Part shown: positions 30,688 to 48,158 of the stretch, one piece after another
Layout of the letters: every line of letters begins with the position of its first letter
Position numbering within the stretch: the first letter of the stretch is position 1
Assembly: GCA_021201315.1 (NCBI GenBank)
Contig: JAJQFG010000037.1
Coordinates: 1-48,260, forward strand
Direction: 5' to 3'
DNA length: 48,260 nt
From: Erysipelotrichaceae bacterium
Lineage (GTDB): Bacteria > Bacillota_I > Bacilli_A > Erysipelotrichales > Coprobacillaceae
The notes under the pieces: generated by a model
The model's database searches: none
The model's input: the letters and a program-made list of their open reading frames with translations, nothing else
Told to the model about the DNA's origin: nothing
Program-made: the position numbers and the translations under genes

Positions 30688-30771
30688 TATTTTCAATTTG
30701 TGAAAATATTCATATACTTTTATATATAAATTTAGTAAAATATAAGTAAATATATGAAAGGAGGAAAAACA

Positions 30772-32688
30772 ATGAATGATTTTCCTAATCTGTTTACACC
30801 TATAACAATAGGTAAAACAACTGTGAAAAACCGTATCTTTATGCCACCTTTATCTACCAATTTGGCTAATCATGGTTATGTAACAGATGATTTAATCCAA
30901 CATTATTCATCACGAGCCAAAGGTGGTGTGGGACTCATTATCACAGAAGTAACAACTGTTGAACCAGTATATACTTATTTACCTGGTGATATGTCCATTT
31001 GCGATGATAGTTATATTGAAGGTTGGCGAAAACTTGTAAGTGCAGTCCATCAATATGATACAAAAATACTATCACAATTATTTCATCCTGCATTTATGGC
31101 TTATCCGTTACCTGGAACACCACAATTGATTGCTCCGTCTAATGTAGGACCATATTATGCTAAAGAAGCGCCTAGAGAGGTAACTATTGAGGAATTGAAA
31201 GTTATTATCAAACAGTTTGGCGAAGCCGCTTATCGTTTTAAACAGGCAGGTGGTGATGGCGTGGAGATTCAAGCAGCGCATGCGCATGGATTATTGGGAG
31301 GCTTTTTAACACCATTATATAATAAACGTACAGATGAATATGGTGGCGATATCAATGGTCGTTTGAAATTAACTTTAGAAGTGATTGATGAAGTTAGAAA
31401 AGTGTGTGATGATGACTTTATCATTGACGTGAGAATTTCGGGTGATGAATATAGTGATGGTGGATTGACACTCAATGAAATGATTTATGTTTCTAAGCAA
31501 TTAGAGAAACATGGTGTTGATTTTATTCATGTTTCAGGTGGTAATACCATCAAACGTGGCAGTTCAATGCCAGCTCCTGGGACAAATCCAGCCCCACACA
31601 TGCATGCCAGTGAAGAAATTAAGAAATATGTTCATATACCAGTAGCTACAGTTGCAAGAATTAATGAACCATGGATTGCTGAAGAATTGATTGAAAACGG
31701 GAAATGTGATATTTGCATGATTGGTAGACCTAATCTTTGTGATAAGGATTTTGCAAATAAAGCAAAAATGGGACAAATTGAAGATATTAGACCATGTATT
31801 GGCTGTGGCAGATGTTTGACGGGTATTATGTTTGGCAAGCCAATTTCATGTACAGTGAATCCCTCAGTGCAATCCGATGAGATTGAAGAGGCTGATGTTA
31901 AGAAGAAGGTATTGGTTATTGGTGGTGGACCTGCTGGTATGGAAGTGGCTTATGATTGTTTTAGAAGAGGGCATGAAGTTGTTTTATGTGAGAAGTCTGG
32001 TAAACTTGGAGGACAGTTGAATATTGCAGCTGTACCTATTACAAAACAGGAAATTACGAAGGTTGTTAAGTATATGAGAAGACGTTTGGAAGTTTCAAAT
32101 GTTGATATTAGACTTAATACGGAAGTTACGGATGAAATGTTAGATAATGAATTTAAGGATTATGAAGTAGTAGGCACAATTGGTGCCATTCCTAAAGAAA
32201 TAGAAGCTTTTAAAGTCTTTAAACAAACTATGACAGCAGATGATATTTTATCAGGTAAAGCTTTTCCTGGTAGAAAAATTGTTATTATTGGTGGTGGATC
32301 TGTTGGATGCGAAACAGCTGATTATTTAGCTCCACTTATCAATGACTTATTCCCTAATAATCGTGATGTTACAATTATTGAACAAACACCAGGATTAATG
32401 AATGGTGAGGGTGGTGCCGCAAAGAGCCAATTAACGCTTCGTTTAATGCGTAAAGGCATAAAGATTGAAACCAATAGTCAAATCACATCTGTTGATGAAA
32501 ATACTATAACTTATATGAAAAAGGGACAAGAATATATCATTGACGATGCTGATACACTTGTTTTTGCTTGTGGATATGATCCAGTAAAAATGAATCATGA
32601 AAGAATTCATTATATTGGTGATAGTGATAAAGTTAGAAATTTAAAAGATGCCATAAGTTCAGCTTATGCATATGCACTAAAATTATAA
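30772..32688 (+). CDS. OYE-family NADH:flavin oxidoreductase with 4Fe-4S cluster (first of pair)
   Basis: A 638-residue multidomain reductase. Residues ~1-340 form an FMN-binding TIM barrel. An iron-sulphur site CIGCGRC ... C follows (~350-370), then FAD (VIGGGPAG) and NAD(P)H (IIGGGSVG) Rossmann domains. The architecture matches 2,4-dienoyl-CoA reductase and BaiCD/BaiH bile-acid enzymes. The barrel motif reads EIQAAHAHGLLGGFL, lacking the tyrosine of FadH, so the substrate probably differs. The cluster spacing C-x2-C-x2-C is one shorter than in FadH. I start at 30772 because the ATG at 30754 lies upstream of AAAGGAGG. Paired with the next gene, 10 bases on. Confidence 0.88.
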   Translation: MNDFPNLFTPITIGKTTVKNRIFMPPLSTNLANHGYVTDDLIQHYSSRAKGGVGLIITEVTTVEPVYTYLPGDMSICDDSYIEGWRKLVSAVHQYDTKILSQLFHPAFMAYPLPGTPQLIAPSNVGPYYAKEAPREVTIEELKVIIKQFGEAAYRFKQAGGDGVEIQAAHAHGLLGGFLTPLYNKRTDEYGGDINGRLKLTLEVIDEVRKVCDDDFIIDVRISGDEYSDGGLTLNEMIYVSKQLEKHGVDFIHVSGGNTIKRGSSMPAPGTNPAPHMHASEEIKKYVHIPVATVARINEPWIAEELIENGKCDICMIGRPNLCDKDFANKAKMGQIEDIRPCIGCGRCLTGIMFGKPISCTVNPSVQSDEIEEADVKKKVLVIGGGPAGMEVAYDCFRRGHEVVLCEKSGKLGGQLNIAAVPITKQEITKVVKYMRRRLEVSNVDIRLNTEVTDEMLDNEFKDYEVVGTIGAIPKEIEAFKVFKQTMTADDILSGKAFPGRKIVIIGGGSVGCETADYLAPLINDLFPNNRDVTIIEQTPGLMNGEGGAAKSQLTLRLMRKGIKIETNSQITSVDENTITYMKKGQEYIIDDADTLVFACGYDPVKMNHERIHYIGDSDKVRNLKDAISSAYAYALKL

Positions 32689-32698
32689 AGGAGAATTT

Positions 32699-34702
32699 AT
32701 GAGTAAATTATTAGAACCGATACAAGTCGGTAAAATGACATTAAAAAATAGAATCATGTTTCCACCTCTGACAACAGGTTATGAAGAAAGAGATGGATCA
32801 ATTGGCACACGTAGTTTAGGCTTTTATGAAAGATTAGCTAAAGGTGGTGTTGGCTATATTGTTATTGGAGATGTAGCACCCGTTCGTACTGCTTCTCCTA
32901 CCCCTAAATTATATGATGATAGTCAAATACCAACATTTAAGAAACTTGCTGATACCTTGCATCAATATGATGCCAAAGTAGCTTTACAAATTTTCCATCC
33001 TGAATATGACGTTCCTGGTGTTGGCAAAATGATTGTAGATGCTAATATAGCACGTGGGGCAGCTGCCAAAGCCAAAGCTTCAGGTAATGAAGAAGAAGCA
33101 ACAAAACAAACACAACTTGCTGAAACAATCACAAGAGATGCTTATGCAAAACTACATCATGATATGCAACACTTTGTATCAGAAGCCACTGTAGAACAAT
33201 TACAAGCTATTATTCAAAGTATTGGTGCTTGTGCTTCTAAAGCACAAGAAGCAGGTATTGATGCAATTGAAATCCATGGTGATAGAATTGTAGGATCACT
33301 TTGTTCTAAAATATTGAATCATAGAACTGATAATTACGGTGGCTCTTTTGAAAATAGAACACGATTTGCTTTAGAAGTTGTAAAAACTATAAGAGAGTCT
33401 GCACCAGAACTAGCTATTGAATATAAATTACCAATTATTACTGTTAATAGTGATGGAACACTTAGAGGAAAAGGTGGTCTACAAGAAGATGAAGCTATTG
33501 AATTTGCTAAACTATTAGAAGATGCTGGGGTTGATATGATTCAAGTAGCGCAAGCCAATCATACTGGCTCTATGGGTGATACCATTCCTCCAATGGGAGA
33601 TGTTCCTTATAATTGGACATTGCCAGTGGCTAAAAAGATTAAGGATGTTGTTTCTATTCCTATAGCTACTGTAGGAAGAGTTGTTACAGTTGAAGCAGGA
33701 GAGAAAATACTAGAAAATGGTGAAGCTGATATTATTGCATATGGACGTTCATTATGTACAGATCCTGATATTGCTTTAAAAATTGAAAAAGGAGAATGCA
33801 TTCGTGAATGTTTGAATTGTAATAAGGGATGTGTTGATGCTATTCAAAATCGTCGATATATTTCTTGTGTTTTAAATGCAGAAAATGGTGATGAAACAAC
33901 TATATTTATTAAACCATCTGATACTTCAAAGAAAGTTCTTATTATTGGTGGTGGTTTAGCAGGTTTAGAAGCTGCTAGAGTGGCAGCTATTCGTGGTCAT
34001 CAAGTGACTATTGTTGAAAAAGCAGATAAACTAGGTGGACAAATTCATTTAGCTGCAATACCTCCAAGAAAAAGTGAAATACTTAGATCTGTAGAATATT
34101 ATGAAAAAATCTTACCAACACTCAATGTAAATATTGAACTAAATAGTGAAGCTACAGTGGATTATATTAATAATTTTGATCAAGTGATTATAGCTATTGG
34201 GGCTCATAATATGGATGTACCATTTAAAGTAGAAAATAGTAATATTGTATCTTCATGGGATGTTTTAGCAGGTGCTCAAGTTAACGGAAAATGTGTTGTT
34301 TTAGGTGGAGGTCTTGTTGGTAGTGAAACCACAGAATTCCTTATCAATAAAGGCTATGAAACATCAATTGTAGAAATGTTAGATAAAGTCGCTATTGGTG
34401 AGTCATCAACTGTTTTGCCTTTGGTCATCAAAGATTTCAAAGAACACAACGTCACTCAATACGTCAATACCAAAGTCAATGAAATCAAAGACAATACTAT
34501 CTATGCAACCAATACAACTGATAATACAGAAATAACTATCAAAGCTGATACCATTATCAATGCCTTAGGATCAAAGAAAAACATCTATAATGAAACAGGA
34601 ATTACTGTACCATTAACATATGTAGGAGATTGCTCTGGTGATAAAACAGCTGATATTGCTTCAGCTATTCGTTCAGGCTACTATGCTGCTAATGCAATAT
34701 AA
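32699..34702 (+). CDS. OYE-family flavin/4Fe-4S reductase with HGDR motif (bilirubin reductase-like candidate)
   Basis: A 667-residue enzyme with the same order as its neighbour: FMN barrel, cluster C-x2-C-x3-C-x11-C (ECLNCNKGC ... SC), FAD domain (IIGGGLAGLEAA) and NAD(P) domain (VLGGGLVGSET). At the active-site strand it reads EIHGDRIVG (H193, G194, D195, R196), replacing the usual HGAHGYL. From memory, HGDR is the hallmark of the gut bilirubin reductase BilR; that link is inference. A helical insertion (~115-165) with many Ala, Lys and Glu is unusual for the family. The last ~350 residues would pass electrons from NADH to FMN. Confidence 0.85.
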   Translation: MSKLLEPIQVGKMTLKNRIMFPPLTTGYEERDGSIGTRSLGFYERLAKGGVGYIVIGDVAPVRTASPTPKLYDDSQIPTFKKLADTLHQYDAKVALQIFHPEYDVPGVGKMIVDANIARGAAAKAKASGNEEEATKQTQLAETITRDAYAKLHHDMQHFVSEATVEQLQAIIQSIGACASKAQEAGIDAIEIHGDRIVGSLCSKILNHRTDNYGGSFENRTRFALEVVKTIRESAPELAIEYKLPIITVNSDGTLRGKGGLQEDEAIEFAKLLEDAGVDMIQVAQANHTGSMGDTIPPMGDVPYNWTLPVAKKIKDVVSIPIATVGRVVTVEAGEKILENGEADIIAYGRSLCTDPDIALKIEKGECIRECLNCNKGCVDAIQNRRYISCVLNAENGDETTIFIKPSDTSKKVLIIGGGLAGLEAARVAAIRGHQVTIVEKADKLGGQIHLAAIPPRKSEILRSVEYYEKILPTLNVNIELNSEATVDYINNFDQVIIAIGAHNMDVPFKVENSNIVSSWDVLAGAQVNGKCVVLGGGLVGSETTEFLINKGYETSIVEMLDKVAIGESSTVLPLVIKDFKEHNVTQYVNTKVNEIKDNTIYATNTTDNTEITIKADTIINALGSKKNIYNETGITVPLTYVGDCSGDKTADIASAIRSGYYAANAI

Positions 34703-35662: not shown

Positions 35663-36586
35663 ATGGAAAAGATTATTAAATTATTACTAATGGGATTATT
35701 ATGTATATCATTAGTAGGATGCTCTAGTGGTGATTCAAGTGAATCAAGTGATGTTGATGCGGACAGTAATACTAGTGAAATGACAACAAATAATGATAAC
35801 ACTGAAACAGACAATAGCGAAACTGCAACAACTAACAATGAAACAAGTAGTAAAACTTATAGTACTAGTGGGAAAGTTGTTACAACATTAAGTGGTAATG
35901 TCTTAATAGAACTTGAAGAGAATGATGTATCGGTTTTTGGTAGTGATGAATGGACACGTTCTCATATCAAAACAATCACTTTTTTAGACAGCCTTAGTTA
36001 TATGCCTTCAGACGCTTATGATTCATGGGATGTTTCTGAAAAAGATGATGGATCTGTTATGGCATGGATAGTAGAAATTGAAGATGATGAAGAAATGTAT
36101 GATTTATATATCGCTGGTGATGGTGGTGTCGATGCAAATGAAAAGAGTAGTGATATGTTTAGGTATTATACAAATCTAACATCTATTAACTTTAATGATT
36201 GTTTTTGTACATCAAATATTACTAGTATGAAAAATATGTTTGTAGATTGCAATATTTTGACAGGTCTTGATCTAAGGAGTTTTGATACTTCAAATGTTAC
36301 AAATATGAGTGATATGTTTTGGAAATGTAAATCTTTGACGAATCTAGATTTAACTAATTTTGATACTTCAAATGTGAAATATATGACTAGTATGTTTAAT
36401 AATTGTAAATCCTTAACAAGTCTTGATTTAAGCAGTTTTGATACATCTAATGTGAAAAATATGTCTTATATGTTTTGTAATTGTGAGTTATTAACAAATT
36501 TAGAAATTACCATTAATGCATCAAATCTAGAAGAATTTGATGGTATGTTTGAAGATTGTCCATTAGAATTGGAAGATTTTTATTGA
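35663..36586 (+). CDS. BspA-like (DUF285) surface lipoprotein, copy 1
   Basis: A 307-residue predicted lipoprotein. The signal peptide ends in the lipobox LVGC, with lipidated Cys20. A low-complexity Ser/Thr/Asp/Asn linker (~21-75) should reach out through the wall. A start domain with DSWDVSEKDDGSVMAW follows, and then about four 26-residue repeats of the type LTxLDLxxFDTSNVxxMxxMF (PF03382, DUF285). Such repeats occur in BspA-like adhesins that bind host proteins; the ligand here is unknown. A paralogue lies directly downstream. Confidence 0.88.
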   Translation: MEKIIKLLLMGLLCISLVGCSSGDSSESSDVDADSNTSEMTTNNDNTETDNSETATTNNETSSKTYSTSGKVVTTLSGNVLIELEENDVSVFGSDEWTRSHIKTITFLDSLSYMPSDAYDSWDVSEKDDGSVMAWIVEIEDDEEMYDLYIAGDGGVDANEKSSDMFRYYTNLTSINFNDCFCTSNITSMKNMFVDCNILTGLDLRSFDTSNVTNMSDMFWKCKSLTNLDLTNFDTSNVKYMTSMFNNCKSLTSLDLSSFDTSNVKNMSYMFCNCELLTNLEITINASNLEEFDGMFEDCPLELEDFY

Positions 36587-36747: not shown

Positions 36748-37710
36748 ATGGAAAAATTTATTAAATTATTATTAGTTGGATTACTAAGTATATCATTGAT
36801 TGGATGTTCAAGTGGTGATTCCAATGATACAGATGATAAAGGTATTAGTGATACAACTAGTGAGACAGAAACAAACAATGACGAAACTGATGTAAGTGAT
36901 AAAGAAACAAGCGAAGATGATGATGAAACAAGTATTGAAAATTTATTATGTCAAGATCTTGACGATGAAGAAAGTGCTTCGAGTCTTCAAAATTATGTTT
37001 TTGGAAATGAAGAATTGGAACGTGAGGATATTCAAACGATTACATTCTTAGATAGTCTAAGTGATATGCCTGCCGATATTGTTGATTCATGGGATGCTTC
37101 AGAAAATAAAGATGGATCTGTTATGGCATGGTTAATAGAAAATGGTGATTTGTATGATTTATATATTGGAGGAAATGGTGGCGTTAATGCAAATCCAGAT
37201 AGTCAATATTTGTTTTTCAATTTTACAAATGTAACATTTATTAATTTTAATAATTGTTTTAATACATCATATGTGACATCTATGAAATATATGTTTGCTA
37301 ATTGTACTAATTTAATAAGTTTAGATGTTAGTACTTTTGATACATCAAATGTTCAAGATATGGAAGGTATGTTTGTTAGTATGAAATCAATTACAACTTT
37401 AGATGTAAGCAATTTTAATACATCAAAAGTTAATAGCATGAAAAACATGTTTGGTACTATGTCATCATTAGTCAGTTTGGATTTAACTAGTTTTGATACT
37501 TCATATGTTTATTATATGAGTGGTATGTTTTCTGACAACAAAGCATTAACAAGTTTGAATTTGAGTAGTTTTAATACATCAAGAGTTGTTGATATGCGTT
37601 ATATGTTCTATGATTGTGAATCATTAACCGATCTTGATATCAGTAATTTTGATATATCAGATAATACCCAGACAACTGATATGTTTTATGATTGTCCAGC
37701 AAAACAATAA
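36748..37710 (+). CDS. BspA-like (DUF285) surface lipoprotein, copy 2
   Basis: A 320-residue paralogue of the preceding gene. The signal peptide ends in LIGC with Cys20, and an acidic Asp/Glu/Thr linker follows. The start domain carries DSWDASENKDGSVMAW. Five to six 26-residue DUF285 units follow (LDVSTFDTSNVQDMEGMF and similar). It has at least one more repeat than copy 1, and the linker has diverged strongly. The pair probably arose by tandem duplication and then diverged on the exposed face. Confidence 0.88.
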   Translation: MEKFIKLLLVGLLSISLIGCSSGDSNDTDDKGISDTTSETETNNDETDVSDKETSEDDDETSIENLLCQDLDDEESASSLQNYVFGNEELEREDIQTITFLDSLSDMPADIVDSWDASENKDGSVMAWLIENGDLYDLYIGGNGGVNANPDSQYLFFNFTNVTFINFNNCFNTSYVTSMKYMFANCTNLISLDVSTFDTSNVQDMEGMFVSMKSITTLDVSNFNTSKVNSMKNMFGTMSSLVSLDLTSFDTSYVYYMSGMFSDNKALTSLNLSSFNTSRVVDMRYMFYDCESLTDLDISNFDISDNTQTTDMFYDCPAKQ

Positions 37711-39923: not shown

Positions 39924-41885
39924 TTAAATATCACAGGCTTTAATATTTGCTTGATATATAGCATTTACAATTTTACCGACTTTACAAGCATCACCAATTA
40001 CTTCTAATTCTGCAACATTACCTGATAATTCTTTTGCTAATGAATTTTGTGAAGTATATCCCATTGCTAATATGATAGTATCAGCAGGAATAAACTTTTC
40101 TGCTTCATTTTTAGGTAACACTGTCACACCATCCTCTTGGAAAGAAGTGATACGTGTGCTAGTCATTAATTTCAACCCATTACGGAAATGAGTAGGGAAA
40201 ATTGAATCATTTGCTAACAACATTGCTTTGTCCATTGGATTCATATCCATACCAATGTCTTCTCTCATTTCAATTAGAGTAACACTGTCTGGATGATATT
40301 TTGTCATAATCAAATCAGCTGTTTCAATACCAACTTCACCTGCACCTGCAATAACAACATTATTTCCAATTTCTGACTTACCTTTAAGCACATCTTCTGC
40401 TTTAATCAATGTTGGTAAATCAATACCTGAAATTTGTGGCATAGCAGGTATAGCTCCAGTGGCAACAAATACTGCATCTGGTTTTAAATCAAGAATCATA
40501 TCTGCAGTTGCGTCACAATTCAATCTTACCTCAACATTTAATCGTTTTAATTGTTCATTTCCCCATTTAATATAACCTAAGAAAGTTTCTTTTGAAATAG
40601 GTAAAGAAGCCACATATAAATTGCCACCTAACTCACTATTCTTTTCTAATAATGTTACCTTATGCCCTCGCAATGCACTAACCCTTGCTGCTTCAATACC
40701 TGCAGGTCCTCCACCAACAACGACAACATTTTTACTTTCATCAGCACGATGTATTTGTGTTTCGTAGCGGCCAACTCCTGGATTAATAGCACAGCTTAGT
40801 TCATATGGCATAACTTCTCCACTATTGATACAGTTTCCACATTTAATACATGTACGAATAGCTTCCCAATCTCCATTTATAGCTTTTTTTGCTGTATCAG
40901 GATCAGCTAATGACTGTTTACCTAATCGAATGGCATCACATTGATCATTTAAAAATGCTTCATTCCAATGTGCAGGATCATATTCACCTGCACCACGAGT
41001 TGTAACAGGAATATTTAATATACTTTTGTAATAAGCAGTTTTATCAAACTGACCAATTGGTTGTCTACGATAACCTGCTGAACATTCAACTCGATGGAAA
41101 GTTTCATAAGTACCATCAGTCTGTAAATCGAAGTAAGTTAATCCAACAGATTCCAATGCTTTTACTAAGGCAGACGTATGTTCACGAACAATACCACCTT
41201 CTACCCAATCACAATCAGCACCACAATAACCGATGATAAAATCTGGACCACATGCTTGACGAATACCAGCAACGATTTCTATTGCTAGTTCCATACGTTT
41301 TTCTAATGTCCCACCATATTTGTCATCTCTATGATTATTATGTGGAGAAAAGAATTGCTCTAATAAGTATGCTGTTGCACCATGAACTTCTACACCATCA
41401 TAACCAATAGCTTGTGCACGACATGCAGCTGCAATAAACTTATCACGAATTTCTTCAATTTCCTCTATTGTTAAAACACGTGATTGAATCATCTCGCCAA
41501 CTTTTCCTAGATCAGCACAAGGAACACCTGAAGGTGATACAGGATTTGTACCAAACATGCCAGAGTGATGAATCTGGCAAATAATAGGTGTATCATACGC
41601 ATGAATAGCTTCAACCAATCTTCTATGACCTGGCATAAATACATCATCCCAAATTGCAATCTGTGGAGTAATCCAATGATGGTTCCCATCAACGGCACAT
41701 GCTTCTGTTGTGATAACGCCACAACCACCTTTTGCACGTGCAACATAATGGGCAATAGTACGATCACTAATTTCACCATTAACTGTTGCTGTTCTAGTCC
41801 ATAAAGGTGAATTCCAAATACGATTCTTAACATTAATTTTGCCTAACTTCAATGGTTTTGTTAAACCTGATACATCTCTTGTCAT
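39924..41885 (-). CDS. OYE-family NADH:flavin oxidoreductase with 4Fe-4S cluster (FadH/BaiCD type)
   Basis: A 653-residue enzyme with an FMN TIM barrel (~1-345), a cysteine cluster CIKCGNC ... C (~345-370), and FAD (VVGGGPAGIEAA) and NAD(P) (IAGAGEVGIET) domains. It keeps the catalytic-type strand EVHGATAYLLEQFFSP, including the tyrosine of the 2,4-dienoyl-CoA reductase and BaiCD group, unlike the other two reductases in this window. Likely substrates are alpha,beta-unsaturated acyl or steroid-like ketones. AGGAGGT lies upstream, and a consensus promoter with nested operators controls it. A separate acquisition from the pair at 30772-34702 is possible. Confidence 0.9.
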   Translation of the reverse strand: MTRDVSGLTKPLKLGKINVKNRIWNSPLWTRTATVNGEISDRTIAHYVARAKGGCGVITTEACAVDGNHHWITPQIAIWDDVFMPGHRRLVEAIHAYDTPIICQIHHSGMFGTNPVSPSGVPCADLGKVGEMIQSRVLTIEEIEEIRDKFIAAACRAQAIGYDGVEVHGATAYLLEQFFSPHNNHRDDKYGGTLEKRMELAIEIVAGIRQACGPDFIIGYCGADCDWVEGGIVREHTSALVKALESVGLTYFDLQTDGTYETFHRVECSAGYRRQPIGQFDKTAYYKSILNIPVTTRGAGEYDPAHWNEAFLNDQCDAIRLGKQSLADPDTAKKAINGDWEAIRTCIKCGNCINSGEVMPYELSCAINPGVGRYETQIHRADESKNVVVVGGGPAGIEAARVSALRGHKVTLLEKNSELGGNLYVASLPISKETFLGYIKWGNEQLKRLNVEVRLNCDATADMILDLKPDAVFVATGAIPAMPQISGIDLPTLIKAEDVLKGKSEIGNNVVIAGAGEVGIETADLIMTKYHPDSVTLIEMREDIGMDMNPMDKAMLLANDSIFPTHFRNGLKLMTSTRITSFQEDGVTVLPKNEAEKFIPADTIILAMGYTSQNSLAKELSGNVAELEVIGDACKVGKIVNAIYQANIKACDI

Positions 41886-41981: not shown

Positions 41982-42102
41982 CTGGAAACATTAACACAAA
42001 TTGATCAAGGTGAAGGTATTTTATTACTTTATGATATGGAATCTATTCAACAAATGGCTGAAACAATTGTATTAGAAACAAATATTCAAATGAGAATGAT
42101 AG
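41982..42102 (+). pseudogene. Remnant of a LevR-type regulator (EIIA-Man-like domain)
   Basis: The open frame reads LETLTQIDQGEGILLLYDME and continues SIQQMAETIVLETNIQMRMI. This closely resembles the mannose-type EIIA domain of LevR/ManR sigma-54 activators (GKGVLLLVDMGSL pattern). It has no start codon, promoter or other domains, and it passes straight into transposase-like sequence. It is therefore a fragment of a lost regulator. Its left edge abuts the promoter of the divergent reductase. Confidence 0.6.
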
Positions 42103-42111
42103 AAATACCTA

Positions 42112-42371
42112 TATACAAAAAAATGATGCTACAAAACATACATTTTTCAGGAAGACGTGCACCAACAAAATACAAAAATGAATTTGGTGAACATTCTAGA
42201 GATAATGGCAGTGGTTATAGAGGACTGTATCGAACTAAAGATGGTACAATCATTAATTCAGATTTAAATGAATCAGCCAACATAGGTAGAAAAGCAATAC
42301 CAGATATGTTTACAATGAAGGATGCGCTATTACCTGATTTTAACAATATCAAGGTATACAAGCAACAGTAA
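42112..42371 (+). pseudogene. C-terminal remnant of an IS200/IS605 TnpB (OrfB)
   Basis: The frame carries FSGRRAPTKYK, then YRGLYRTKDGTIINSDLNES and ANIGRKAIPDMF. This matches the last RuvC motif of TnpB (D-x-N-x3-NI with the catalytic Asp) and its downstream tail. The first ~300 residues, including the other RuvC motifs, are missing. After the TAA at 42369 the same frame stays open with Lys/Gln-rich codons to a TGA near 42487, so the stop may itself be a late mutation. It is fused in frame to the LevR remnant. Confidence 0.72.
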
Positions 42372-42759: not shown

Positions 42760-43778
42760 ATGTCAATTACTGCTAAAGAACTAGCCAAAAAACTTAATTT
42801 ATCTGCAGCTGCAGTTTCTATGGCTTTAAATAACAAACCTGGTGTCAGCACAAAAACCAGACTTAAAGTAAGAGCAGCTGCTGAAAAATATGGATATGAT
42901 TTTTCTAAAATCAATGAAAAATCATATGAAAATGCAACAATACACTTTGTGATTTATAAAAAATACGGTAGTGTTATAACGATTGATAATCATTTCTTTA
43001 CAGAAGTGATGGAAGGAATATCTGCAAGCTGTAAAAAAATCAATTAAAATTTAAAATTGATTATATTTATTATGATGAAAATTCATCAAATATAGATTTA
43101 GAAGAAATGTTTTATACTGATTGTAGTGGAATTGTTTTATTAGGTACAGAAATGGAGCCAAGAGATGTTATACCTTTTCTTGCATTACCATATCCAGTTG
43201 TTTTACTAGATGCTTATTTTAATACAATTCCATGTAATTCAGTCCTAATTAATAATGAACAGGGAAGCTATTTAGCAGGAAGAGAACTTTTACGTTGTTG
43301 TCAAAAGGAACCTGGATATTTAAGATCAAATTTAAGGATTAGTAATTTTGTTCAGCGATCTAATGGGTTTTTTAACTCAGTCAGAGAAAGTGGTTATAAT
43401 ACATCAAAGTGTATTATACATGATTTAACTCCATCTATTGACGGTGCATATAATGATATGTTAGAAATACTAAAACGAGGTGATGATATTGCTCCTGGAT
43501 ATTTTGCAGATAATGATTTGTTGGCATTGGGAGCTTTAAAGGCATTTAAAGAAATGGGATATCGTATACCCGAAGATGTTTCTATTATTGGTTTTGATAA
43601 TCTCTCTATTAGTGAAGTTTCTGATCCTCCTCTTTCTACTATCCACGTTCCAAAGCAATATCTTGGAATAGAAGCAGTAAATAGGTTAATGTCCTTGATG
43701 AAAGATCCAAATCAAACACCTGTAAAAATTCAAGTACTAACTTATTTCTTAAAAAGAGATAGTTCAAAGGATTATTAA
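42760..43778 (+). pseudogene. LacI-family regulator split by a frameshift
   Basis: Two frames together make one LacI-type protein. 42760-43047 encodes the helix-turn-helix (SITAKELAKKLNLSAAAVSM) and the hinge, then stops after SCKKIN. The -1 frame resumes with KIDYIYYDENSS and runs to 43778, containing the sugar-binding domain (GYFADNDLLALGALKAF, VSIIGFDNLSISE). The break lies in a run of seven A at 43033-43039, where one more A would restore the protein. It may be a real mutation, a sequencing error, or slippage at the A-run. It lies immediately upstream of the PTS operon and is its obvious regulator. Confidence 0.85.
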
Positions 43779-43866: not shown

Positions 43867-45759
43867 ATGTCTAAAAATTACAGTCAATTAGCCCAAGAAA
43901 TAGTAGAAAATGTGGGCGGTACAGAAAACGTTAAAAGTGTTATTCATTGTATGACAAGATTGCGCTTCACTTTGAAAGATGAATCTAAAGCAAATACGAA
44001 GCATCTTGAAAACATGAAGGGTGTCATCCAAGTTATTCAAAACGGAGGTCAATATCAGGTTGTCATAGGACAGCAAGTTGGTGATGTTTATGAAGAGGTT
44101 ATTAAAATTCCTGGAATTAATGCAGGAAATTCAAATGGTGAAGAAGTTGAAGAAAATTCTGGTTCTAATGAAAAAGGTATTAAAGGCTTAGCTTCAACGT
44201 TAGTTAATACCATTACTGGTATTTTTACACCAATTCTTGGTGTATTAGCTGCCTCAGGTATGATAAAAGGTATCCTTATTGTTTTGTCAACAATAGGAGT
44301 TTTATCATCAACGTCAGGTACTTATAGAATTTTATATGCTAGTAGTGATGCTATTTATACTTTCTTACCTATTTTCTTAGCTTATACATCTGCAAAACGA
44401 TTTGGAGCTAATCAATTTATTTCAGTAGCAATTGCTGGTGCTTTAGTTTATCCAGACTTAACTGCTGCTTATAGTGCAGGTGAATCACTTACATTCTTTG
44501 GAATACCGGTTGTTTTAATTAGTTACACATCTACAGTATTACCAATTATTATAGCCACTTATACACAATCAAAACTTGAAAAGTTTATGAAAAAGATTTT
44601 ACCAAGTGTTATCAGAGATCTTTTATATCCTGTATTCTCTATATTAATTATTGTACCTTTAGCTTATTTAATTATTGGTCCAGTAACAGATTGGTTAGGT
44701 AATTCATTAGCTTCTATTACTTCAACTGCAATTAATGTTGCACCAATTCCTGTCGGATTTATATTATGTTTTGTTTGGCCACTTGTTATTATGGCTGGTA
44801 TTCATTGGGGATTTATAGCAATTGCTATTAATACAATGGCTATTTCAGGAAGAGAACAAATGGTTTCATCAACAGGTCCTATCAATTTTGCACAGGCTGG
44901 AGCCACATTAGGTGTATTCTTAAAAACACGTAACAAAGAATTAAAAGAAATCTCTGGTCAAGCATTTATAGCAGCTATCTTAGCAGGTATTACTGAACCA
45001 GCAATGTATGGTGTAACTCTAAAATATAAAAAGCCATTTTATTTCGTTATGATATTTGGAGGTATTTCAGGTGCTATTATGGCCGCTAGTGGTGCAGGTG
45101 CAACAGCTTTTGCTAGTTTGTCTATCTTAACATGGGGAACTTATATGGGCCAAGGCTTTGTTGGATTTGTTATTGCTTGTTTAGTTGCATTCTTTGGACC
45201 ATTGATTTGTACATATCTATTTGGCTTTGATGATTCAATGTTAGAACCAGCAACTTCAAAAACAGATAATGACAACAACAATGCTATTGAAAACACATCA
45301 ATTGAAACTACATGTAATATATATACACCTATTCAAGGTAATGTTATTCCTTTAGATCAAGTTTCAGATAAAGCTTTTTCTCAAGGTGCAATGGGAGAAG
45401 GTATCGCAATTGTCCCAAGTGAAGGTAAAATAGTGGCTCCATTTGATGGTGAGTTACTAGTCCTATTCCCTACAAAACATGCTTTGGGATTAAAATCTAC
45501 AAGTGGTGTTGAAATTTTAATTCATGTTGGATTTGATACAGTTAATTTACAAGGAAAATATTTTAATGCTTTAGTTTCTCAAGGTGATAAAGTTAAGAAA
45601 GGCCAAACACTTATTGAATTTGATATTGAAAAAATACAAGAAGCTGGCTATAGCATTGAAACTCCTGTTGTTGTTACTTCAATGAGTCAATATGATACTC
45701 TTCAATTAACTGAAAAAAAGAATATTGAATTTAATGAAATTTTAATGAATCTAAAATAG
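43867..45759 (+). CDS. Beta-glucoside-type PTS permease, EIIBCA
   Basis: A 630-residue three-domain PTS permease of the Glc/Bgl family. Residues ~1-90 are EIIB with the phosphorylated Cys28 (VIHCMTRLRF). Residues ~115-460 are the membrane EIIC with about ten segments and the TEPAMYGV motif. Residues ~480-630 are EIIA with the ILIHVGFDTV histidine. It imports a sugar or glycoside and phosphorylates it on entry. I start at 43867 (MSKNYSQLAQEIV) after AAAGGAGAG. Followed closely by an esterase and a glycosidase, it defines a catabolic operon. Confidence 0.93.
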   Translation: MSKNYSQLAQEIVENVGGTENVKSVIHCMTRLRFTLKDESKANTKHLENMKGVIQVIQNGGQYQVVIGQQVGDVYEEVIKIPGINAGNSNGEEVEENSGSNEKGIKGLASTLVNTITGIFTPILGVLAASGMIKGILIVLSTIGVLSSTSGTYRILYASSDAIYTFLPIFLAYTSAKRFGANQFISVAIAGALVYPDLTAAYSAGESLTFFGIPVVLISYTSTVLPIIIATYTQSKLEKFMKKILPSVIRDLLYPVFSILIIVPLAYLIIGPVTDWLGNSLASITSTAINVAPIPVGFILCFVWPLVIMAGIHWGFIAIAINTMAISGREQMVSSTGPINFAQAGATLGVFLKTRNKELKEISGQAFIAAILAGITEPAMYGVTLKYKKPFYFVMIFGGISGAIMAASGAGATAFASLSILTWGTYMGQGFVGFVIACLVAFFGPLICTYLFGFDDSMLEPATSKTDNDNNNAIENTSIETTCNIYTPIQGNVIPLDQVSDKAFSQGAMGEGIAIVPSEGKIVAPFDGELLVLFPTKHALGLKSTSGVEILIHVGFDTVNLQGKYFNALVSQGDKVKKGQTLIEFDIEKIQEAGYSIETPVVVTSMSQYDTLQLTEKKNIEFNEILMNLK

Positions 45760-45773
45760 TAGGAGATGAACAT

Positions 45774-46784
45774 ATGATAATTAATGAAAAAACGACTTTT
45801 GGTGAACTAAGAAATTCAAATAGTTCTATTTCACAAATCATGCCCTTTATACAGCCTACTAGCAAGGGAAATATTGTAGAAGATACAATAGAACATTATT
45901 GTGATGAACAAGCTAAGGAAACTGCATTTGCCTTACAATTAATGAATGATTTACTAGAATCAAATAAAGCATTTAGTGATAAAGTTTATGATAATGATGC
46001 TATAAAACAATCTCCTGATAAGGAAGAAGTTCAAATATCTTATTTTGAAACTAATGCAAATGCTCCTCTTGCTATTATTGTACCAGGAGGAGGTTACCAT
46101 AAAGTTTGTACAATGTTAGAAGGTGTACCCATTGCTGGAAAATTATTAACTAATGGTTTCAACATTGCGTTACTACGCTATCGTACAAATCAAAAAGGTG
46201 TATTACCTAAACCACTTGAAGATTTTGCCTATGCTCTTAAACATTTACAAAACAAAGGAATTTCTATTAATAATTATATTGTTGTAGGATTCTCTGCTGG
46301 TGGACACTTAAGTGGTAGTTGGGCAATTGAAAAACTAGGGTATGGTAAATATAATTTACCTAAACCAAAGATGCTGATTCTAGGTTATCCTTTACTAGCT
46401 ACATGGATATATGATGAAAAATTAAAACATAGAGATCAATTAACAAATGATGAAATAATTTTGTGTGAAGATACTCTAAATAATATGTTAGGTGATTATA
46501 CTGAAGAAGAGATCAATTTATATAGTGTTGATAAACAAATTGATGAGAATTATCCACCACTTTATTTTATTCATAGCAAAAATGATGAGTTAGTTGATTA
46601 TCATGGAGCGATTGAAATGGACAAAAAATTAAATGAATTTCATGTGAAGCATCAATTTAGATTATTAGAAGATTGTGGACATGGATTTGCTCTTTCATTT
46701 CATCATCGTGAAACAGTTCAAGGATGGATGGATATAGCATTAGACTTTTATAAAAATATTGAACGATTGGAGAATTCAAAATGA
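45774..46784 (+). CDS. Alpha/beta-hydrolase, carbohydrate esterase-like
   Basis: A 336-residue cytoplasmic alpha/beta-hydrolase. The triad is S174 (GFSAGG), D271 (SKNDELVD) and H303 (CGHGF), with an oxyanion loop PGGGYH (104-109). This matches the acetyl-esterase / BD-FAE-like group that removes acyl groups from sugars. An N-terminal ~75-residue helical extension (TTFGELRNSNSSISQIM) is not part of the hydrolase fold and may be a small accessory domain. It lies 14 bases after the PTS gene and overlaps the next gene by 4 bases, so it very likely acts on the same imported substrate. Confidence 0.85.
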   Translation: MIINEKTTFGELRNSNSSISQIMPFIQPTSKGNIVEDTIEHYCDEQAKETAFALQLMNDLLESNKAFSDKVYDNDAIKQSPDKEEVQISYFETNANAPLAIIVPGGGYHKVCTMLEGVPIAGKLLTNGFNIALLRYRTNQKGVLPKPLEDFAYALKHLQNKGISINNYIVVGFSAGGHLSGSWAIEKLGYGKYNLPKPKMLILGYPLLATWIYDEKLKHRDQLTNDEIILCEDTLNNMLGDYTEEEINLYSVDKQIDENYPPLYFIHSKNDELVDYHGAIEMDKKLNEFHVKHQFRLLEDCGHGFALSFHHRETVQGWMDIALDFYKNIERLENSK

Positions 46785-48055
46785 CTAAATTAGTAGTAAA
46801 TGAGCAAAAAAATGGATTTGAACTCAATGGTAAACCCTTCTTTTATCTTGGAGATACTGTCTGGAGTGTTTTTACAAATGCTACCTTAGATGAATGGGCT
46901 TATTATTTAAAGATTAGAAAAAGTCAAGGTATCAATGTTTTACAAATTAATACTTTACCTCAGTGGGATAGATGTTTAAATGAAACAGGATTATATCCAT
47001 TTAAATGCATTGATGATCAAGTGTTTGATTTTAATCAATGGAATCAAGAATATTATGACCGTGCTAAATTAATGTGTAAAATGGCTGTTGAACAAGGTTT
47101 TCAGCTTGCATTAGTTGTATTATGGACAAATTATGTGCCAGGAACCTGGGGTAGTGCAATTTGTAAGGATAATATTATGCCATATAATGTTATCGATTCT
47201 TATGTAGCAAAAACTGTCAATCAATTTGAAGAATTTGACCCTATGTATATTGTAAGTGGTGATACTGGTTTTGATAGTGATGAATCTATTTCACATTACC
47301 AACAAGTATTAAACTCTTTAAATAAATATTCACCTGATTCACTAAAAGCATTTCATATTAAAAGAGGATATCATTATATACCTAAAGAATTTTTAAATGA
47401 TATTGATTTCTATATGTTCCAATCTGGACATAATAGAGATCAACAGAATCAAGCTTATTTATTAGCTGAAGAATTTATTAATCACTATCCAAAGAAACCA
47501 ATAATTAATGCTGAACCATGTTATGAACAAATGGGCTATAGCAGACAGCTTTATGGACGTTTTACTCAAGAAGATGTAAGAAAAGCAGCATGGACAAGCT
47601 TATTAGCAGGTGCAAGTGCTGGAATTACTTATGGTGCACATGGTATTTGGAATTGGGAAAAAAGCACTGAGAAAGTCAACAAAAACTTAGGTGAAGGATT
47701 TGATAGTTCAGATCCATGGTATAAAGCTATTTTGTATCCAGGCGCATGGGATTATGGTTTTATCAAATATTTATTAGAAGATTATCAAATAACATCCATT
47801 TCCTCTAAACAAGATATTTTAATAAATAATACTGATGAAATTAGAATTGGCAAAACAAATAATAATATATATTTAGTATATCTTCCTCATACTACTAAAA
47901 TTAAATTAAAACAAAAATTCAATAATCCAAATGTTAAAATATATGATTTACAAAATGGCAGAATAGCTAATGGTGAAATTATCTCTAATAATGAAGAAAC
48001 AATTATATCACAACATCCTTTCGAACAAGATGCATTAATATTAGTAAAAGAATAA
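46781..48055 (+). CDS. DUF4038 / GH140-like glycoside hydrolase, cytoplasmic
   Basis: A 424-residue TIM-barrel hydrolase of the DUF4038 (apiosidase-like, GH140) kind. The start GFELNGKPFFYLGDTVWSVF and the segment EWAYYLKIRKSQGINVLQ are typical. Candidate catalytic acids are D161 (VSGDTGF) and E245 (INAEPCYE). A C-terminal beta domain (~345-424) follows. There is no signal peptide, so it works inside the cell, unlike the exported plant-polymer enzymes of Bacteroides. It overlaps the esterase gene by 4 bases and ends the operon. A phosphorylated glycoside from the PTS is its likely substrate (inference). Confidence 0.82.
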   Translation: MTKLVVNEQKNGFELNGKPFFYLGDTVWSVFTNATLDEWAYYLKIRKSQGINVLQINTLPQWDRCLNETGLYPFKCIDDQVFDFNQWNQEYYDRAKLMCKMAVEQGFQLALVVLWTNYVPGTWGSAICKDNIMPYNVIDSYVAKTVNQFEEFDPMYIVSGDTGFDSDESISHYQQVLNSLNKYSPDSLKAFHIKRGYHYIPKEFLNDIDFYMFQSGHNRDQQNQAYLLAEEFINHYPKKPIINAEPCYEQMGYSRQLYGRFTQEDVRKAAWTSLLAGASAGITYGAHGIWNWEKSTEKVNKNLGEGFDSSDPWYKAILYPGAWDYGFIKYLLEDYQITSISSKQDILINNTDEIRIGKTNNNIYLVYLPHTTKIKLKQKFNNPNVKIYDLQNGRIANGEIISNNEETIISQHPFEQDALILVKE

Positions 48056-48121
48056 TATATTTAAAACTCCCTTACAAGATATTATTTGGTCAATGTCATT
48101 AAGTTAAGAACTAAAAACATT

Positions 48122-48158
48122 CCCCTTCTCACAAATGAGAAGGGGTCATTTTTTATTT
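48122..48158 (+). terminator. Terminator of the PTS-esterase-glycosidase operon
   Basis: CCCCTTCTCA and TGAGAAGGGG form a perfect 10-bp GC-containing stem with loop CAAA, followed by a T-run. It is the strongest terminator in the accessory half of the window. The remaining 102 bases to the right edge hold no recognisable gene. Confidence 0.92.

Follow-up and report, generated by a model that had tools for sequence, protein, structure and literature searches.

The operon analyzed in this study probably serves the uptake and intracellular breakdown of apiosyl beta-glucosides. These compounds would be imported by a phosphotransferase system (PTS), a GH140-type enzyme would free the apiose, and a GH1 enzyme would free glucose-6-phosphate. 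The operon lies in the window, the whole stretch of 48,260 nucleotides that was analyzed, which is the complete contig JAJQFG010000037.1 in the 2.99 Mb assembly of a gut-type Erysipelotrichaceae bacterium. It is composed of the genes for EIIBCA, an esterase, and a GH140-type protein, and is closed by a terminator (Table 1).

Table 1. Features of the operon and its upstream regulator gene in the window.
Feature	Position	Strand	Basis
LacI-family regulator, frameshifted	42760..43778	+	LacI and Peripla_BP_3 domains; tblastn
Beta-glucoside-type PTS EIIBCA, 630 aa	43867..45759	+	TIGR01995
Alpha/beta-hydrolase esterase, 336 aa, cytoplasmic	45774..46784	+	PF20434/Abhydrolase_3
GH140-type (PF13204/DUF4038) protein, 424 aa, cytoplasmic	46781..48055	+	PF13204; predicted model; conserved residues
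Rho-independent terminator	48122..48145	+	10-pair stem, 6 GC pairs, then T run

The coordinates and domains confirmed the three tightly coupled genes of the original prediction. The EIIBCA start codon (ATG, 43867) is preceded by a strong ribosome site, AAGGAGAG. The esterase gene starts 14 nt past the PTS stop codon, and the GH140-type start overlaps the esterase stop by 4 nt. The closing terminator of that prediction was also found, with a GC-rich stem and a T run. Terminator-like matches were not more frequent in the region than in shuffled sequence, so the call rests on position and stem strength. An Rfam search of the window gave no match. Directly upstream, a LacI-type gene that the original prediction had missed likely encodes the regulator of the operon, and LacI genes occupy the same position in most of the related loci. 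In the A7 tract at about 43034–43040, a one-base shift disrupts the gene, giving frames of 95 aa and 223 aa. With an intact LacI homologue from a related locus (L004) as tblastn query, the alignment carried on across both frames. The frameshift may be real decay, phase variation, or, since it is sited in a homopolymer, an assembly error.

EIIBCA scored 722.1 bits against TIGR01995, the curated beta-glucoside IIABC model with a cut-off of 614.7 bits. The domain order was B-C-A, with EIIB at residues 10–43, EIIC at 119–398, and EIIA at 484–608. The EIIB cysteine (VIHCMTRLRF) and the EIIA histidine (LIHVGFDTV) were both present, in agreement with the complete transporter first proposed. The results suggested that EIIBCA probably phosphorylates a beta-glucoside during transport. 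In a tree of 50 PTS proteins, the window PTS fell inside a 22-member clade in which every member is GH140-linked (support 100/99), and the paralogues branched outside it. Its identity to the PTS proteins of four GH140-bearing genomes was 49–54%, compared with at most 36% to paralogues within its own genome. The PTS gene lies directly upstream of the GH140 gene in three of these four genomes and about 10 kb off in the other (G012). The GH140-linked PTS proteins of Listeria and of a Lachnospiraceae locus (L124) were found on other branches of the tree. The PTS-GH140 pairing therefore has more than one origin, an argument for function and not for inheritance alone.

The GH140-type protein, encoded by the one PF13204 gene of the host genome, scored 275.8 bits against the PF13204 "Apiosidase" profile (cut-off 26.5 bits). 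No signal peptide was seen by eye in its sequence. All of its sequence relatives with solved structures were of GH140 type (8t9w, 3kzs/5msy, and 4qfu), and its identity to the solved apiosidases was 23–25%. The three-dimensional structure was modeled from 30 homologues with a mean pLDDT of 88.5. The model showed the barrel and C-terminal beta domain of 5msy and 8t9w. The best fold match was the GH140 apiosidase 8t9w (Z 39.2 over 403 residues), followed, all at Z about 36, by 5msy, which is BT_1012 (Z 35.8), 3kzs, and 4qfu; the next family in the comparison was GH164 (Z 27). Asp161 and Glu245 aligned with the GGD and GEP catalytic motifs of 8t9w and 3kzs, and both residues were invariant across 32 homologues with identity down to 40%. 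The enzyme is thus a probable beta-apiosidase. The new enzyme type that had been envisaged was not borne out: fold, catalytic Asp/Glu pair, and gene neighbors all indicate a GH140 beta-apiosidase.

BT_1012 of Bacteroides thetaiotaomicron (5msy/3kzs) takes part in the extracellular or periplasmic degradation of pectin RG-II. Together with the mangrove metagenome enzyme 8t9w, it shares with the window enzyme the PF13204 domain, the full-length fold, and the catalytic residues. The window enzyme differs from both in its low sequence identity, in being cytoplasmic, in its position behind a PTS, and in its putative phosphorylated substrate.

To investigate the gene neighborhood, about 85,000 genomes were scanned, which yielded 30 homologous GH140 loci. 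An EIIBC(A) gene was located directly upstream of GH140, on the same strand and within 500 bp, at 24 of the 30 loci, usually behind a LacI gene. The closest GH140 homologue (G258, 62%) had no PTS alongside. The coupling of PTS and GH140-like enzyme put forward in the original prediction is therefore real and conserved. At 11 loci the next gene after GH140 was a GH1 gene, and one of these GH1 proteins (L006) passed the curated 6-phospho-beta-glucosidase model with 664 bits (cut-off 639 bits). Because of these GH1 neighbors, what is imported is probably a beta-glucoside bearing phosphate on its glucose, as delivered by a bgl-type PTS. It is very likely that GH140 meets a phosphorylated glycoside in the cell, as had been supposed.

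It had further been proposed that the enzyme acts in place of a phospho-glucosidase. On this reading, the DUF4038 enzyme would itself be a phospho-glycosidase that holds the phosphorylated sugar in its −1 site and replaces GH1 or GH4. Neither GH1, GH4, nor another usual 6-phospho-glycosidase was found within the window operon, ten Lacrimispora-type loci likewise had no adjacent GH1, and GH140 in the clade stands mostly behind a PTS, all of which would suit such an enzyme. However, GH1 is adjacent in the 11 relatives, and the original claim that the usual 6-phospho-glycosidases are absent is true of the operon but not of the genome, where 16 GH1 genes were counted. At least two of them, on contigs C55 and C97, passed 6-phospho-beta-glucosidase cut-offs. 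Moreover, the isomerase and kinase linked to the system in relatives imply that the released sugar is still unphosphorylated. Replacement of GH1 or GH4 by the DUF4038 enzyme is thus quite unlikely, and GH140 as the sole phospho-glycosidase was set aside. Most likely, GH140 would work beside a phospho-glucosidase. Bgl-type operons of a PTS and a 6-phospho-beta-glucosidase share the TIGR01995 transporter with the window operon; in the relatives with GH1, GH140 stands between transporter and phospho-glucosidase, whereas the window operon lacks GH1 and carries an esterase.

PTS-GH140 is adjoined at 12 loci by genes for a fucose-isomerase-like protein, a transketolase in two halves, and a glycerol-kinase-type FGGY kinase. 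In the Lachnospiraceae locus L124, this cassette follows LacI-PTS-GH140 in a single operon. The order in Listeria monocytogenes is isomerase-tktA-tktB-kinase-PTS-GH140, also in a single operon (L166:2464–10245, NZ_CP030101.1), and the GH140 protein is 45% identical to that of the window. The genes of this operon are annotated as hypothetical protein, glycerol kinase, transketolases, or beta-glucosidase. Judged by gene content and order, it is apparently lmo1031–1036. This operon has been listed with no function assigned (PMC2996996), and the lmo1035–1036 mRNA is a target bound by the sRNA RliI (PMC8079631). From its gene content, lmo1031–1036 looks like an apioside utilization operon. The lmo1030–1036 region resembles the PTS-GH140 relatives in its isomerase, transketolases A and B, "glycerol kinase", beta-glucoside PTS, and GH140; compared with the window operon, it has the complete apiose cassette and no esterase.

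A growth-tested apiose cluster of E. coli contains the kinase AplK and the split transketolases AptA and AptB (PMC13001218). The D-apiose cluster of Pectobacterium and E. coli consists of apsI or two SDR genes, aplK, aptA, and aptB, according to Carter et al. (cited in PMC13001218). The E. coli SE15 copies were compared with the cassette proteins. The identity was 42–49% for AptA, 30–36% for AptB, and 36–39% for AplK, the last value not being discriminating for kinase identity, since true GlpK is at least as close to AplK. The kinases were instead compared by profile score. AplK and the kinases of Listeria and of another Lachnospiraceae locus (L013) are GlpK relatives scoring under the GlpK equivalog cut-off, with true GlpK above it; some cassette kinases were at or just over this cut-off. 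The isomerase was present in all 20 GH140-bearing genomes checked, with 54–100% identity, and an AptA-like half lay next to it in nearly all of them. In a 299-genome sample of the Lachnospiraceae family of L013, about 51 genomes had the isomerase, including five of the six GH140 carriers (Fisher p = 0.0006, or 0.003 minus the center genome, uncorrected for shared ancestry and genome size).

The two CH2OH groups of apulose are attached to the same carbinol carbon, as they are in glycerol, so a GlpK-type kinase would suit it. A transketolase step after apulose phosphorylation would leave dihydroxyacetone phosphate. On these sequence comparisons, the isomerase, split transketolase, and GlpK-like kinase appear to match the known D-apiose pathway. 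The likeness to the Pectobacterium and E. coli cluster lies in the GlpK-like kinase and the split transketolase, which stand beside the PTS-GH140 of the relatives. The E. coli cluster differs in encoding an ABC sugar transporter, presumably for free apiose, whereas in the window system an apioside would be imported by a PTS. The isomerase linked in the relatives, of the fucose-isomerase-like group, is a further difference from the E. coli cluster, and the host itself is without the cassette.

GH140 may instead free another pentose, such as arabinofuranose or xylose, with the cassette serving that pentose. PF13204 is broad and largely uncharacterized, an isomerase, a kinase, and a transketolase would fit an ordinary pentose too, and the cassette is missing from the host. 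However, the cassette kinase is GlpK-like and, in the same way as E. coli AplK, scored far under the xylulokinase cut-offs. The known apiose cluster has this same arrangement of a dedicated split transketolase next to a GlpK-like kinase, and the nearest structures include characterized apiosidases. Another pentose is therefore unlikely.

The route that we propose starts with beta-glucosides that carry a beta-D-apiosyl group on glucose. A 6-O-apiosyl group would block O6 of glucose; thus, 2-O-apiosyl substrates such as apiin are the most likely. EIIBCA would place phosphate on O6 of glucose during uptake. The esterase would strip an acyl group that blocks the apiose, for example on O5 of apiose, before the GH140 cut. 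GH140 would then hydrolyze the apiosyl bond, giving D-apiose that is free and unphosphorylated. The aglycone would be separated from glucose-6-phosphate by a GH1 6-phospho-beta-glucosidase, the gene for which lies elsewhere in the genome. Many relatives would go on to isomerize and phosphorylate the free apiose and to cleave it by transketolase. Since the relatives have a separate isomerase and kinase for the free sugar, the phosphate is most likely on glucose at the time of the cut and not on the released sugar; the separate cassette kinase argues against phosphate on apiose itself.

The esterase matched PF20434 (3e-14) and PF07859 (1.5e-10), and had the motifs of the BD-FAE/Abhydrolase_3 group: the nucleophile in GFSAGG, the Asp in NDELVD, and the His in GHGF. 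The nearest solved sequence was 4q3k (MGS-M1). The other PTS-GH140 loci yielded no such esterase; it is therefore an addition local to this operon and was not kept as a core part of the system. Unrelated alpha/beta-hydrolases lie upstream of GH140 in locus L025 and downstream in L027, which only hints at acylated substrates. The L027 cluster (L027:1–14575, an Erysipelotrichaceae contig) contains two PF13204-like proteins, PTS parts, GH43, an esterase with an Ig-like domain, an unassigned 868-aa protein, and two GH1 proteins.

The full D-apiose pathway (isomerase, AplK, and AptA/AptB) was not found in the host genome. No homologous isomerase was found in the host or in the 43 genomes of the host family that were examined. 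Neither a split transketolase nor a non-GlpK kinase was found in the host genome, where true GlpK alone represents this kinase type. Without the cassette, the host may use the glucose only, and the substrate in this particular host is less certain. Most simply, the host would remove apiose to gain access to glucose-6-phosphate, and the apiose is probably discarded.

The origin of the host copy was also investigated. The GH140 gene was absent from all three other genomes of the host genus, and the host protein was nested in a clade dominated by Lachnospiraceae, with G258 as sister. Other members of the host family have a more distant GH140 copy beside a different EIIC. The phylogenetic position suggested that the host GH140 was probably acquired by transfer. 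These two observations, the frameshifted LacI regulator, and the lack of an apiose cassette would also be expected of a transferred module that is decaying and has no working pathway. However, all three genes, for the transporter and the two enzymes, are intact and the catalytic residues invariant, the frameshift falls within a homopolymer and is possibly an assembly error, and glucose-6-phosphate alone would repay import. A decaying module is therefore very improbable.

Several other features were observed on the contig and in relatives. In two host-family relatives (L053:5800–15000 and L168:10845–19001), GH140 has as neighbors an EIIC encoded as a separate protein and an EIIB-like protein of 101 aa; an SDR and an aldo/keto reductase come next. 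The apiose clusters of E. coli reportedly also have two oxidoreductases in place of the isomerase. Just upstream of the operon, a small ORF (42036–42371) has a TnpB-like C-terminal look; neither Pfam nor a plasmid search confirmed a transposase-like reading. Three large OYE-type flavin/Fe-S oxidoreductases resembling bilirubin reductase or BaiCD are encoded at 30754–34702 and 39924–41885, and the protein at 39924–41885 scored under the curated cut-offs. An adjacent pair of genes at 35663–36586 and 36748–37710 encodes DUF285/PARCEL-repeat surface proteins.

Apiose often occurs in the flavonoid and phenolic glycosides of the diet, such as the apiin of parsley and celery. To our knowledge, there is no established route for apioside uptake by gut Bacillota. 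GH140, the bgl PTS, and the apiose pathway have all been described before; what appears to be new is their combination into an intracellular apioside route fed by a PTS. In the literature searched, which covered few subscription papers, nothing relevant was found that ties GH140/DUF4038 to a PTS or to apulose, or apiose to the Listeria PTS; the novelty originally suggested for PTS-coupled GH140 thus apparently stands. As a more tentative extension, it is possible, though we consider it doubtful, that the enzymes of the clade form a separate group of intracellular apiosidases, specialized on 6-phosphoglucosyl apiosides and needing a PTS-placed phosphate on the neighboring glucose. Apiose metabolism would then have its first entry route that depends on a PTS, lmo1031–1036 included. 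The PTS-GH140 pair provides a specific and testable uptake route for apiosyl glycosides. It predicts that GH140 enzymes would act inside cells and on phosphorylated substrates, and it offers a possible function for an orphan operon of Listeria.
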